From Williamsia soli (lineage in GTDB: Bacteria > Actinomycetota > Actinomycetes > Mycobacteriales > Mycobacteriaceae), in the NCBI RefSeq assembly GCF_017377795.1, contig NZ_JAFRDR010000004.1:434001-498000 (forward strand): DNA of 64,000 nt. Direction: 5' to 3'. The notes beneath the pieces were generated by a model, which made no database searches, was not told where the DNA came from, and saw only the letters and a program-made list of their open reading frames with translations. How positions within the stretch are numbered: the first letter of the stretch is position 1; every line of letters starts with the position of its first letter. A program made the position numbers and the translations under genes. Positions 8,208-21,429 of the stretch are shown here, in pieces.

Positions 8208-8978
8208 TCAGCGGGTCGACCGGTCGTCGTCTCGAGTGCCGCCTGGCGTCGCAGAGCTCTGCCGGGTGTCCACGGGTCGTCGGGTCGGGGCGCCGGGGCG
8301 AGGTGATTGATCACGGTTGACCCAGGCCAGCGCCACGACGATCACCGTGACGGCCAACGCGATTCCCGCCATCAGTCCGGTCCATCCTGTGAACGCGGCG
8401 GTTCCGGGTTCTTCGTAATTCGCCTCGGCGGTCATGGGTGAGGCCTTGCCGATCTCAGGCTTCCACGACACCGCGTCCTCGCCGTCCTGCTGCCCGTTGG
8501 TGGCACTGACCGGCCCGGCGAACTGGACGGAGAACTCGACATAATCTCTGCCCGGCGCGAGGCCCTGCAGATCCGCGGTACCACGGAATGCGACGACATC
8601 GCCGCGACGCTGTGCGTTGAGGTCCATGGTCACCGACGTGTCCGGATACGCGTCGTCGACCAGTTCTCCGAGTTGGGTGAACTGTCCGAGGGTCGCCTCG
8701 GTGAAGGTCGCGCGGGTCCCGATCAACCCGTCTCGTTTGAACTCGGTCGCGCTGACCACCGACTCCAGCGACTGCGGGACGACGATCTGAGGGCCTTTTT
8801 CCTGGCCGACGTCCTTCTCGGCCAGCACCATGGCTCCCCAGAGGCGGTCGCCGAATTCGGTGGGCGAATTCGAGCAGGCCGCGAGTGCGGGACCGCAGAC
8901 CAGGACCAGCAGGGCAAGAACCAGGCTCACGGGGCCGCGGCGCTGCCGGCCGCGGGGCTGTCGGGTGATCTGAGGCAC
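8208..8978 (-). CDS. lppM: LppM-like lipoprotein
   Basis: A 256-residue exported lipoprotein with GTG start. A hydrophobic signal ends in the lipobox PALAAC with the modifiable Cys at residue 35. A beta-rich ectodomain follows, then a C-terminal membrane helix (WTGLMAGIALAVTVIVVALAWV-like) and a basic Arg/Pro tail of about 30 residues. This lipoprotein-plus-TM layout and the position next to metF match Rv2171 (lppM), which is implicated in mannosylated lipid synthesis or trafficking in M. tuberculosis. The adjacent MptA gene fits that theme. Molecular activity is unknown. Confidence 0.75.
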   Translation of the reverse strand: MPQITRQPRGRQRRGPVSLVLALLVLVCGPALAACSNSPTEFGDRLWGAMVLAEKDVGQEKGPQIVVPQSLESVVSATEFKRDGLIGTRATFTEATLGQFTQLGELVDDAYPDTSVTMDLNAQRRGDVVAFRGTADLQGLAPGRDYVEFSVQFAGPVSATNGQQDGEDAVSWKPEIGKASPMTAEANYEEPGTAAFTGWTGLMAGIALAVTVIVVALAWVNRDQSPRPGAPTRRPVDTRQSSATPGGTRDDDRSTR

Positions 8979-9034
8979 GCGACTATCGTGCCATTAGTGC
9001 TGCGCCGGCGTGGAAAGGGCGCGCTCTCGTGCGT

Positions 9035-9838
9035 TCAACGTGGGGTCAGGCGGCCCCTGCCGACTGCGCCGAACAGGCAGATCGCGGCAGGAACACCGAC
9101 GATGCCCATTCCGATCAGCCCGTAGGGGACTGCGGCGGGCAAGTCCGGATCGTCGAGAAAGACGAGAAAGGCCAACGCTGATCCGAGCCAGGTCCAGGTG
9201 AACCAGCCGATGGGGGTGATCGCCGAGCGCCAGGTGATGACGATCGGCTGCCGGTCGATGAACGACAGGAGCGTGAACATCACCGCGGCGACCCCGGCCC
9301 AACCGAGGAAGTTCGTGATGGGGATCTGATCGATGCCCGGCAGGCCGGCATCCCGGGCCTCCCAGGTCCACAACCCCGCGCTGACCATCTGCGGATCGAG
9401 ATACAGGTCCCAGCCGACCATTCCCGCAGTTGCAAGTGGGACCCGGAACCACGGTGCTGTCGTGATGAATGAGCTGACCCACCAGATGCAGTAGCCACCG
9501 GCCGTCCAGGCCAGGCCGATGACGATCGGCACGTCAGCGATCGACGGGCCGATCCGGCCGGTGGCGTACTCGTAGGCGCCGAACGGGAAAGACGTTGCGG
9601 TACCGATGATCTCAGCGCTCCAGCCGACACCCGCAGTTGCCGCGACCATCGCCACCGTCCGAAGGGTGCCGAGGCGGGCTGCCGAATGGAGCACCATCGC
9701 CGCGGCTGAGGCGAGCACCACGGTGACAGTCACGTGATCCCGGGTGGTGCCGTCGACGAGTGGGTAGGTGATCTGCGCTGCGATGGATACGACGAGCAGT
9801 GCGGCCGATAGTGCAAACCGGGTGTCCGGTGACGTCAT
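9035..9838 (-). CDS. CruF-like carotenoid biosynthesis membrane protein
   Basis: A 267-residue integral membrane protein with about seven to eight hydrophobic segments. Conserved-looking charged motifs in membrane context include SAEIIGTATSFPFGAYEY, GWDLYLDPQMVSAGLWTWE and FLGWAGVAAVMF. These are features of the carotenoid biosynthesis family containing CruF (carotenoid 1',2'-hydratase). The ATG at 9838 overlaps the TGA of crtO (ATGA), so the two are probably co-translated. The reaction is inferred: hydration of the acyclic end of gamma-carotene-type carotenoids, giving the hydroxyl that a CruG-type enzyme glycosylates. Confidence 0.7.
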   Translation of the reverse strand: MTSPDTRFALSAALLVVSIAAQITYPLVDGTTRDHVTVTVVLASAAAMVLHSAARLGTLRTVAMVAATAGVGWSAEIIGTATSFPFGAYEYATGRIGPSIADVPIVIGLAWTAGGYCIWWVSSFITTAPWFRVPLATAGMVGWDLYLDPQMVSAGLWTWEARDAGLPGIDQIPITNFLGWAGVAAVMFTLLSFIDRQPIVITWRSAITPIGWFTWTWLGSALAFLVFLDDPDLPAAVPYGLIGMGIVGVPAAICLFGAVGRGRLTPR

Positions 9839-18214: not shown

Positions 18215-19840
18215 ATGTCTGCTCCCGAGAACTCGGTGCTGCGCCCAGCCGTGGTGACACCGACCGAAGTCGCGGTGCTGTCGGCGGCGAGTGGTGCGCG
18301 GATCGATCTGATCGGCGCCGTCACCGAGAAGACCGAGGTCACCGGCGTCACCCTGCGCGCGCAGCACGTACGCACCGGCGATCTCTTCGCCGCCCTGCCC
18401 GGTAGCAAGGTGCACGGTGCTCAGTTTGCCGCCGATGCTCTGGCCGCCGGGGCCACCGCCGTGCTCACCGACCGGGTGGGCCGCGACATCGTCGAGGCCA
18501 TCGCGGGGCCGATCGATTGCGCCGTCCTGGTTCATCCCCGGCCGCGTCAGGTGCTCGGGGAGCTGAGCTCGCGGATCTACGGTCAGCCCTCGCGCCGGAT
18601 AACGCTGGTCGGTATCACCGGTACCTCTGGCAAGACCACCAGCAGTTACCTCACCGAGGCGGCTCTGATGGCGGATGGTCACTCCGTCGGCCTGATCGGC
18701 ACGGTTGAGACACGTATCGCGGGTATCCGTCAGCCGAGCGCACTGACCACACCGGAGGCCCCGGAACTACAGGGTCTCCTCGCTGCGATGCTCGAGCAGG
18801 GCGTGGACGCGGTCGTCATGGAGGTCTCGAGTCATGCCCTCGAGCTCGGCCGGGTGGACGGCAGCGTATTCGGGATCGGAGCGTTCACCAATCTCTCGCA
18901 GGACCATCTCGACTTCCATCCCACGATGCGCGACTACTTCAACGCGAAATCGTTGCTCTTTCAACCTGATTCGGCGGTGCACGCGTTGCGCACCGTCATC
19001 TGCGTCGACGACGAATGGGGCCGGGAGATGGCCCGTATCGCCGGCGAGAACGCGATCACCCTTTCGACCGGCGACACCGCGGCCCACTGGCACGCCGGCC
19101 CATCGGACGTTGCCGTCGACGGAAGTCAGACGGTGACGCTGACCGATCCCGATGGGGACACGTTCACGATGACCGTCCCCATGCCGGGACGATTCAACGT
19201 GGCCAACGCCTTGACCGCCGTCGTGATCGCCTCCGTCGCCGGCGTGGCGACGACCGTCGCGATCGAGTCGATCAGCGAGGTCGCGGTACCAGGCCGGGTC
19301 GAACGGGTGAGTCGAGGGCAGGACTTCCTCGCTGTGGTCGACTACGCGCACAAGCCTGCTGCGCTCGAGGCAGTCATCGAGACGCTACGCGGTCAGGCGA
19401 GCGGGCGGATCGCGGTTGTGGTGGGGGCCGGTGGCAACCGGGACACGGGCAAACGGCCGCTCATGGGAGCGGCCGCGGCGCGGGGCGCGGAGCTGGTGGT
19501 GATCACCGATGACAACCCTCGAACGGAAACGCCCGCCGAGATCCGGGCACAGGTGCTGGCCGGCGCGCACGCTGTGGCCCCCTCGGCCCGACCAGACGGC
19601 GCGGAAGCCGTGCGCGAGATCGGGGATCGCGCCGAGGCCATCCGGGCAGCGGTGGCGTGGGCGCAGCCCGGCGACGTGGTGCTCATCGCCGGCAAGGGCC
19701 ACGAAGCCGGACAGGAGATCCATGGCGTCAAACACCGGTTCGACGACCGGGTCGTCCTTGCCGAGTCGATCGACGAGATTCTGATTGCGCGCACTGCTCC
19801 CGCTGCCGATGGGGCGGCTCGATCCCGGAGGCACGATTGA
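18215..19840 (+). CDS. murE: UDP-MurNAc-tripeptide synthetase (meso-DAP adding) MurE
   Basis: A 541-residue Mur ligase with all three domains: the N-terminal UDP-binding part (VTLRAQHVRTGDLFAALPG), the ATP P-loop GTSGKTT (136-142) and the C-terminal domain with DNPR (433-436). DNPR is the motif that selects meso-diaminopimelate. The enzyme adds m-DAP to UDP-MurNAc-Ala-Glu in the cytosol. ATG at 18215 is used; a GTG at 18209 is out of frame. The TATGTT six bases before the ATG suggests a possible leaderless start. Its TGA overlaps the TTG of the next gene. Confidence 0.93.
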   Translation: MSAPENSVLRPAVVTPTEVAVLSAASGARIDLIGAVTEKTEVTGVTLRAQHVRTGDLFAALPGSKVHGAQFAADALAAGATAVLTDRVGRDIVEAIAGPIDCAVLVHPRPRQVLGELSSRIYGQPSRRITLVGITGTSGKTTSSYLTEAALMADGHSVGLIGTVETRIAGIRQPSALTTPEAPELQGLLAAMLEQGVDAVVMEVSSHALELGRVDGSVFGIGAFTNLSQDHLDFHPTMRDYFNAKSLLFQPDSAVHALRTVICVDDEWGREMARIAGENAITLSTGDTAAHWHAGPSDVAVDGSQTVTLTDPDGDTFTMTVPMPGRFNVANALTAVVIASVAGVATTVAIESISEVAVPGRVERVSRGQDFLAVVDYAHKPAALEAVIETLRGQASGRIAVVVGAGGNRDTGKRPLMGAAAARGAELVVITDDNPRTETPAEIRAQVLAGAHAVAPSARPDGAEAVREIGDRAEAIRAAVAWAQPGDVVLIAGKGHEAGQEIHGVKHRFDDRVVLAESIDEILIARTAPAADGAARSRRHD

Positions 19841-20340
19841 CGCCGCCGACGCGATTGACGTTGTCGGACGGACGCACGGCGGGTCATCTGCTGTCCCAGC
19901 CGACCGGGCCCGTGACCCAGCGATCCGTGCGGACGGCGCTGCGTGAACTCGCCGACGTGGTGCATGCCCAGCCGGAACGGCGCAGCTGGGCCATACTCGG
20001 TGAGCTCGATCCGCCTGACGAGTTGGACGTTCACGATGCGCTCGAGATGACGCGGTGGGTGGTTTCACACGACGAACTCGGACGACTTGCGGTACGACTC
20101 GACATCGCGCAGGTGATCTGTGTCGGCACGTCGCGGGCGATGCACGGCCTCCACCAGGGAGCGGTCATGGAAGGGTCATGGGGTTCGGAGGCGGTGCTGG
20201 TGTCGGGCCCGAAGGAGGCGCTGGACATACTGGATGCGCAACTCGGCCAAGACGACGTGGTCCTGGTCATGGGTGGACGTGAGCTGAGACTGGCCGAATC
20301 ATTCGGGGCCGGCGGGGTATCGAAAGGTGAGGACTTCTAG
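19837..20340 (+). CDS. MurF C-terminal-domain-only protein at the murF position
   Basis: A 167-residue protein lying exactly where murF should be (between murE and mraY). From about residue 30 it resembles the C-terminal domain of MurF: SVRTALRELADVV, RRSWAILGEL, then HDELGRLAVRLDIAQVICVG, HQGAVMEGSWGSEA and DDVVLVMGGREL. The N-terminal UDP domain and the central ATP-binding domain with its GxxGKT loop are absent. No other frame in these 500 bp contains them. The Lys of the usual VLVKGSR-type motif reads Met. It has a GGAGG site 5 nt before TTG at 19837 and overlaps the murE stop, so it looks translated. It ends one base before mraY and carries mraY's AGGTGAGGA site. It could be a relic, a coupling device or a new function. 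Confidence 0.7.
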   Translation: MTPPTRLTLSDGRTAGHLLSQPTGPVTQRSVRTALRELADVVHAQPERRSWAILGELDPPDELDVHDALEMTRWVVSHDELGRLAVRLDIAQVICVGTSRAMHGLHQGAVMEGSWGSEAVLVSGPKEALDILDAQLGQDDVVLVMGGRELRLAESFGAGGVSKGEDF

Positions 20341-21429
20341 GTGAGACAGATCCTGATTGCGGGGGTGATCTCGCTGGCTGTCGCGATCCTGCTGACCCCG
20401 GTGCTGATCAAGGTCTTTTCACGACAGGGATTCGGCCAAGAGATCCGGGTCGAAGGGCCCAAGAGCCATCAGACCAAACGCGGCACCCCGTCGATGGGCG
20501 GCGTCGCCATCGTCGCGGCTCTGTGGGCCGGGTACTGGGGCGCGCACCTGGTCGGACTCGCGACCGACGGAGGCGGTCCCACCGCGTCCGGCATCCTGGT
20601 GCTCTCGCTGGCGACGACACTGGCCTTGGTCGGGTTCCTCGACGACTTCATCAAAATACGTAAGCAGCGCAACCTCGGTCTGAACAAGACCGCGAAGTCG
20701 GTGGGCCAACTGATCGCCGCCCTCCTGTTCGGTGTCCTGGCACTGCAGTTCCGGAACGACGCCGGGTACACACCGGCGAGCACGAATCTGTCGTACGTGC
20801 GCGAGATCGACGCCATCACGATGGGGTCGGTCGCGTTCGTCGTGTTCGTCTGGCTGGTGGTCTCGGCCTGGTCCAACGCCGTCAACTTCACCGACGGACT
20901 CGATGGTCTCGCCGCGGGATCGATGGCGATGGTGCTGGGTTCCTACGTCCTGATCACGTTCTGGCAGTACCGGAATGCGTGCGTCGGTGGACCGAAGACC
21001 GCCGAACCCGGCTGTTACACCGTGCGCGACCCACTCGACCTCGCGCTCATCGCTGTGGCCGGCGGCGGCGCGTGTCTGGGATTCCTCTGGTGGAATGCCG
21101 CGCCCGCCAAGATATTCATGGGCGATACCGGCTCACTCGCACTCGGTGGCATGCTGGCCGGCCTGTCCATCACGACCAGCACGGAACTGCTGATGGTGGT
21201 GGTGGGTGCACTGTTCGTCGCGGAGATCATCTCGGTGGTCATCCAGATCGCGGTGTTCCGGACCACGGGCCGGAGAGTCTTCCGAATGGCGCCCTTCCAT
21301 CACCACTTCGAACTGTCCGGGTGGGCAGAGACCACGGTGATCATCAGATTCTGGTTGCTCACGGCCATCGCCTGTGCGCTGGGGCTGTCGCTGTTCTACA
21401 GCGAGTTCCTCACCGCCAGCGGGGGATAG
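20341..21429 (+). CDS. mraY: Phospho-MurNAc-pentapeptide translocase MraY
   Basis: A 362-residue polytopic enzyme that transfers phospho-MurNAc-pentapeptide to undecaprenyl phosphate, forming lipid I at the inner face of the membrane. Motifs seen are [29 protein letters not shown] (Asp pair), [22 protein letters not shown] and the HHH loop FHHHFEL. GTG at 20341 begins immediately after the TAG of the MurF-domain gene, whose last codons contain the AGGTGAGGA ribosome-binding sequence. Length is normal. Confidence 0.96.

Follow-up and report, generated by a model that had tools for sequence, protein, structure and literature searches.

MurF, the UDP-MurNAc-tripeptide:D-Ala-D-Ala ligase (TIGR01143), is defined by three domains, the first of which binds UDP; in the third, the SYNANP loop and the lysine of a VK motif have a catalytic role. 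Several described systems use MurF in unusual settings. In Bordetella pertussis a bifunctional MurE-MurF fusion is reported, together with a MurE-MurF-MurG scaffold model of cytoplasmic peptidoglycan synthesis (PMC6420597), and in actinobacteria murF genes are reported to be co-localised with vancomycin-type clusters (PMC8698665). Here we describe a MurF derivative of a different kind. It was found in 64,000 nucleotides of Williamsia soli (contig NZ_JAFRDR010000004.1, positions 434,001 to 498,000, assembly GCF_017377795.1; hereafter the window), where the place of murF between murE and mraY is taken by a short gene for MurF domain 3 only, which we refer to as the stub.

The stub is like MurF in the sequence of its domain 3, in its fold and in its location between murE and mraY, suggesting common descent; it differs in having neither the UDP-binding domain nor the ATP domain, and neither the SYNANP loop nor the lysine of VK(A/G)S. 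As in B. pertussis, a MurF-derived part stands behind MurE in one chain in seven stub genomes; unlike that bifunctional protein, only an apparently dead domain 3 is fused, and a full-length MurF is encoded elsewhere in the genomes searched. The scaffold model likewise joins Mur proteins by contacts beyond their active sites, whereas here the putative contact part seems to be isolated as a gene of its own. Finally, as at the vancomycin-type clusters, a murF lies beside a D-Ala-ligase-family gene outside the division and cell wall (dcw) cluster; here, however, that neighbour is the only gene at the TIGR01205 level, and the pair appears to replace the native murF rather than to supplement it.

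The stub gene (19837..20340; like all window features given here it lies on the forward, +, strand) was assigned from its open reading frame, family matches, a structural model and relatives. It encodes 167 residues presumed to be catalytically dead, begins with TTG, and has a GGAGG ribosome-binding site (19827..19831) 5 nt upstream. Its start overlaps the murE stop by 4 nt (TTGA, 19837..19840), its own TAG stop lies immediately 5′ of the mraY GTG at 20341, and in this window its 3′ end contains a likely mraY ribosome-binding site (20323..20333). A first-pass annotation had described just such a 504-bp gene, with its own GGAGG, an overlap with murE and an abutting mraY, and each of these features can be read in the bases. 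Since only ∼500 nt separate murE from mraY, the UDP-binding and P-loop domains cannot fit between them, and the absence of both, also claimed in the first pass, is borne out by family searches: the best match of the stub is TIGR01143, confined to model positions 311–412 of 418 and scoring 31.2 bits, far short of the 288.6 bits at which a protein counts as a MurF ligase. Pfam Mur_ligase_C (PF02875) gives 27.3 bits (E 7e-6), slightly below its gathering cut-off of 28.4. The protein lacks the N-terminal UDP-binding domain of a three-domain MurF, and no ATP-binding P-loop (GKT) occurs in its 167 residues; judged by its predicted sequence, the stub cannot by itself act as a ligase.

The AlphaFold model is a confident single domain (predicted local distance difference test 90; predicted template modelling score, pTM, 0.85), and in it the Mur ligase domain 3 fold is predicted to be intact. 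When the model was searched with Foldseek, all three matches at E ≤ 0.001 were M. tuberculosis MurE chains (best E 2e-4), and the MurF structure 4ziy ranked ninth (E 0.01); a search of solved structures with the stub sequence profile returned no match at E 0.01. The resemblance to Mur ligase domain 3 first noticed in the letters thus extends to the predicted structure. It also begins earlier than the first pass supposed: in an alignment with native MurF it sets in at residues 18–20, around the first strand of domain 3, and not at residue 30 or so. The stub domain is 43–51% identical to full-length MurFs from other genera of the family, and a domain-3 tree of few columns and many unresolved forks, from which 4 of 14 Acidimicrobiia-type rows were omitted after failing the motif match, places the stub clade next to native domain 3 and apart from the replacement MurF discussed below. 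These comparisons indicate shared descent with the native Mycobacteriales MurF domain 3.

The D, Y, N, A, N and P of the catalytic loop, invariant in 18 native MurFs, are lost from stubs: across 34 of them the seven columns of the SYNANP loop are kept at a mean of 8%, and the D, Y, N and N columns, together with the K of VK(A/G)S, are kept in none. By alignment to native MurF, the place of the lost NDSYNANPDS loop in the window falls at residues 21–30 (19897..19926), and Met145 (codon 20269..20271) replaces the invariant Lys of VLVKAS, confirming a substitution noted in the first pass. Conservation in at least 17 of the 18 native MurFs marks 52 columns of domain 3, and 22 of these persist in at least 85% of the 34 stubs; 19 of the 22 are consecutive in the list of 52, which none of 20,000 shuffles matched. 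They centre on the motifs HD..GR..VR, VG..R and HQGAVMEGSWG.E, whose columns are kept at 97–99% on average, and EGSWG is present in 39 of 39 stubs. In the window this retained patch, located by alignments of stubs and native MurFs, spans residues 78–118 (20068..20190; HDELGRLAVRLD...VGTSRAMHGLHQGAVMEGSWGSE). Stub alignment A2 held 22 of the 23 loci of our first set, L080 being omitted (96% like L079), and alignment A3 was made without the named loci L197 and L198, which are identical to L084 and L087.

The ratio of non-synonymous to synonymous substitution rates (dN/dS) is 0.04–0.42 across 13 stub pairs, and the invariant patch residues are encoded by freely varying synonymous codons. Varied codons at invariant residues, combined with a low dN/dS, indicate that selection acts on the stub protein; the codon variation also rules out a conserved DNA or RNA element in its place. 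The MurFs of two genomes (G010 and G012; loci L230 and L231) have no HQGAVMEGSWG patch, yet carry the YNANP and VKAS motifs. To judge from these and from the replacement MurF discussed below, which is likewise patchless, MurF chemistry in general does not require the patch. Set beside a presumably dead stub that bears it, they suggest that patch and catalysis are separable in both directions, provided that these MurFs, but not the stub, are active.

A comparison of the locus in Gordonia and relatives, proposed in the first pass, found the stub throughout. Of 201 genomes of the family, 183 gave a match to the stub query, although most among the matches listed are the C-terminal ends of ordinary full-length MurFs of ∼500 residues. 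Six related genera contribute 34 genomes, all of which match (nine in g1, the genus of the window genome; 14 in the distinct genus g9, whose G016 is closest to named Gordonia; eight in g18; and one each in g7, g12 and g16), and the stub was confirmed in every one of the 29 that were read individually (that is, all but the g9 genomes G131, G143, G154, G195 and G215). It is likewise present in 14 of 14 named genomes, comprising 12 Gordonia, Williamsia sterculiae and one uncultured Williamsia; these were chosen from at least 16 Gordonia/Williamsia replacement-MurF loci, leaving out the metagenome-assembled genome (MAG) loci L125 and L129, and two of them repeat genomes G023 and G074. The occurrence of a stub at the same site in many assemblies rules out the assembly deletion that had been considered a possibility.

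That the full-length ligase had moved elsewhere, as the first-pass annotation proposed, proved half right. The window genome does encode a full-length MurF, the only one above the model cut-off (C21:206153-207475; 441 residues, 391 bits), on a different contig from murE. The gene is divergent from, and adjoins, ddl, which is the only gene of the genome above the TIGR01205 cut-off. This type of MurF is the sole MurF at E 1e-20 in 14 stub genomes among 61 searched, and it is without the retained patch of domain 3. It belongs, however, to another lineage. A midpoint-rooted tree was built from 63 full-length MurFs. In it, 17 replacement rows (from the Gordonia/Williamsia group and from family f3) cluster with 14 Acidimicrobiia-type rows (Acidimicrobiia, unclassified actinobacterial MAGs, Conexibacter, Patulibacter and one MAG labelled Acidobacteria), and the split of these from 32 native Mycobacteriales MurFs has a Shimodaira–Hasegawa-like approximate likelihood ratio test (SH-aLRT) support of 100. 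The Ddl of the window genome looks foreign too: it shares 56–65% identity with the divergently placed Ddls of Acidimicrobiia-type murF loci in 10 of the 11 cases where one is present (the exception, a Conexibacter locus, gives 40%), compared with 43–45% for two native Mycobacteriaceae Ddls. This comparison rests on identities, the Ddl tree carrying a long-branch warning. The native MurF thus seems to have given way to a ddl-murF pair of foreign type. As a separate observation, a g18 genome has a second, weak D-Ala-D-Ala-ligase-like match (G025:C1:51536-52480; 81.7 bits, below cut-off).

Two genomes of family f3 (G038 and G053; loci L111 and L112) have a dcw cluster without murF and a single MurF beside ddl; in these, murE is separated from the mraY behind it by about 88 and 103 nt, with no stub between.

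In the first set of 23 loci, 21 stubs are separate genes and two are fused in frame to MurE; among the 14 named loci, 11 are separate and three are fused (G. sihwensis, G. effusa and G. hydrophobica). With two further cases (G087 and G103) the in-frame MurE-stub fusions total seven, all in distinct assemblies, two of which are single-contig genomes. In one fused chain (L077) just one set of Mur domains was found. Where the genes are separate, the 4-nt overlap of stub start and murE stop is present in 20 of 21 loci of the first set and in 11 of 11 of the named set, two of which repeat the first (at L012 and L074 it was taken from the bases, the local murE match running beyond the stop); in the exception, G014, the stub starts 6 nt after murE. 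The same overlap occurs in 15 of 18 native murF genes, and that of the stub is therefore best regarded as inherited. The junction with mraY is looser: with the mraY start placed by aligning the window MraY, the distance in relatives ranges from approximately −4 to +168 nt, so that relatives do not consistently share the arrangement of the window.

A second group of stubs came to light in a stub-profile search over 298 genomes of the order. Among the matches listed, five genomes of genus g60 (family f9) have a short frame of 118–126 residues between murE and mraY; g60 genomes without a stub may exist among the 73 that did not match. In all five the frame overlaps murE (GTGA), the catalytic motifs are gone and GR..VRLD and HAGAVLEGSWG.ES are kept. 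In a tree built without replacement and Acidimicrobiia-type rows, the g60 stubs join the single f9 native MurF included (SH-aLRT 87, on a long branch) and the Gordonia-type stubs form a separate clade (SH-aLRT 99); from these positions it appears likelier that the stub arose twice, independently. The best MurF-like protein of the g60 genomes scores 174–183 bits, below the MurF cut-off, and its gene lies away from murE; each of the four that were read (L245 was left out) begins with a hydrophobic N-terminus and contains a GKT P-loop. Ddl-like genes adjoin it in three neighbourhoods searched, family-checked in one. The g60 drafts are 84–92% complete, and a full MurF could be missed in any single one. 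One g60 locus (L252:5104-7732) places such a ligase, hydrophobic N-terminus included, beside a D-Ala-D-Ala-ligase-type gene and has a second Ddl-type match at 8447-9394.

Kinship to native domain 3, loss of the catalytic motifs, selection on the protein, a MurF and Ddl of foreign type, fusions to MurE and a second group of stubs: from these computed observations we propose, with a probability of roughly 0.6, that the stub is the remnant of the native murF, its domain 3 kept as a non-catalytic docking adaptor beside MurE after takeover by a foreign-type ddl-murF pair. In the ancestor of the Gordonia/Williamsia group the incoming pair would have taken over the catalysis of the native Mycobacteriales MurF. 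The native murF would then have lost its N-terminal and P-loop domains, while domain 3 stayed as a folded, catalytically dead protein. Its conserved HD..GR..VR, VG..R and HQGAVMEGSWG.E surface, shared with native MurF and apparently dispensable for catalysis, would most likely dock a partner in the cytoplasmic peptidoglycan machinery. We infer an exposed, protein-binding patch and a position next to MurE in the cell; the stub would be a small adaptor produced in step with MurE, and in some species on the same chain. Consistent with this, a fragment-complementation assay reported in PMC3605390 found M. tuberculosis MurF positive with FtsZ, FtsW, FtsQ, Wag31, SepF, PknA and PknB. We put at even odds the broader proposition that Mycobacteriales MurF domain 3 holds a catalysis-independent docking site, excised twice as a dead, MurE-tied adaptor upon takeover of MurF.

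Several points weigh against a docking adaptor beside MurE. The same M. tuberculosis report describes no binding of Mur ligases to each other, so that MurE need not be the direct partner of the stub. The 4-nt overlap loses its force as fresh evidence of a link to MurE, native murF having it as well, and a model of a MurE-stub fusion (pTM 0.77) says nothing firm about contact between the two parts. The shuffle figure is optimistic, the stub rows being related sequences, and some patch residues may be structural. The replacement MurF may stem from old paralogy with differential loss, not from transfer. Finally, the two stubless f3 genomes with a displaced MurF mean that the function is not universally needed.

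Other explanations share much of this evidence. The first pass suggested that the product might bind MurE or MraY. MraY binding found no support, and the role at MurE has gained some from the seven fusions. In its narrowest form, in which the stub binds MurE as a stabilising or regulatory subunit, tunes its activity and has no other partner, the idea also draws on the start overlapping the murE stop in most genomes; we nonetheless hold it unlikely, given that the patch belongs to native MurF, where it may have a partner other than MurE, and that the two-protein tests reported for M. tuberculosis gave no Mur ligase contacts (PMC3605390). Less probable still is a bridging role between MurE and the replacement MurF, by which the stub would restore the UDP-MurNAc-tripeptide hand-off that the native enzyme formerly provided. 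The replacement MurF is patchless, is encoded on another contig and is the only MurF at E 1e-20 in the 14 stub genomes among the 61, and the g60 MurF-like gene also lies away from murE, all of which would suit a bridge; nothing, however, indicates contact between stub and replacement MurF, and the two f3 genomes manage with the same type of MurF and no stub.

The first-pass annotation offered retention for coupling to mraY and a new protein role as alternatives, and here the evidence falls on the side of the protein. A relic kept just for murE-mraY translation or transcription would explain why, in the window, the end of the stub bears the likely mraY ribosome-binding site and abuts the mraY start. 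It is very improbable, however, in the face of the variable gap to mraY in relatives, free codon variation at invariant residues of a conserved patch, dN/dS below 0.43, the existence of MurE-stub fusions and the two f3 genomes that keep mraY after murE with no stub. We are similarly doubtful about the N-acetylmuramic acid hydroxylase NamH as the docking partner of the patch; in M. tuberculosis it is reported to bind MurF only among the Mur ligases (PMC3605390). Of the 61 genomes searched for its Pfam family, SCP2_Rv3818, all 14 with a stub have it, and G010 and G012, the two with a patchless MurF, do not, but the wider presence pattern weakens the candidate: G011, G015 and G027 are without NamH, yet their MurF has the patch (altered in G015), and the same combination of patch and missing NamH occurs outside the family, in G044. 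Overall, 23 of the 61 genomes have no SCP2 match. The window genome itself encodes a NamH-type protein (G000:C21:102111-102470, locus L228), a metallo-hydrolase with Rv3818-like SCP2 and Rieske domains.

The dcw cluster around the stub is otherwise well populated: family searches of the window identified mraZ, rsmH, an FtsI-type penicillin-binding protein, murE (18215..19840; NF001124, 604 bits), mraY (20341..21429; TIGR00445, 277 bits), murD, ftsW, murG, murC and ftsZ. Outside it, the same genome encodes a second MurE-type ligase of 500 residues (G000:C3:96474-97976; locus L115:4475-5977), which scores above the cut-off for TIGR01085 (396 bits) and just below that for NF001124 (466 against 476 bits).

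Among the open-access literature matches listed, no report of a truncated MurF, of the Gordonia/Williamsia MurF or of a Mur pseudoenzyme was found, which is not proof of absence. The stub is a real, conserved gene with a putative non-catalytic function, a case of the familiar theme in which a domain persists after its parent enzyme is gone. Whether the Mur ligases form a physical complex is debated, with PMC3605390 and PMC6420597 on different sides and concerned with different bacteria, and the essentiality of every ligase makes such a complex hard to test. In the stub, a putative contact part seems to have become detached from the chemistry in the course of evolution: the stub could in principle be removed or mutated with MurF activity spared, and it draws attention to about a dozen residues of native MurF. 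In Gordonia and Williamsia, moreover, an essential peptidoglycan ligase belongs to a lineage other than that of their relatives, which bears on inferring the conservation of drug targets across the group.
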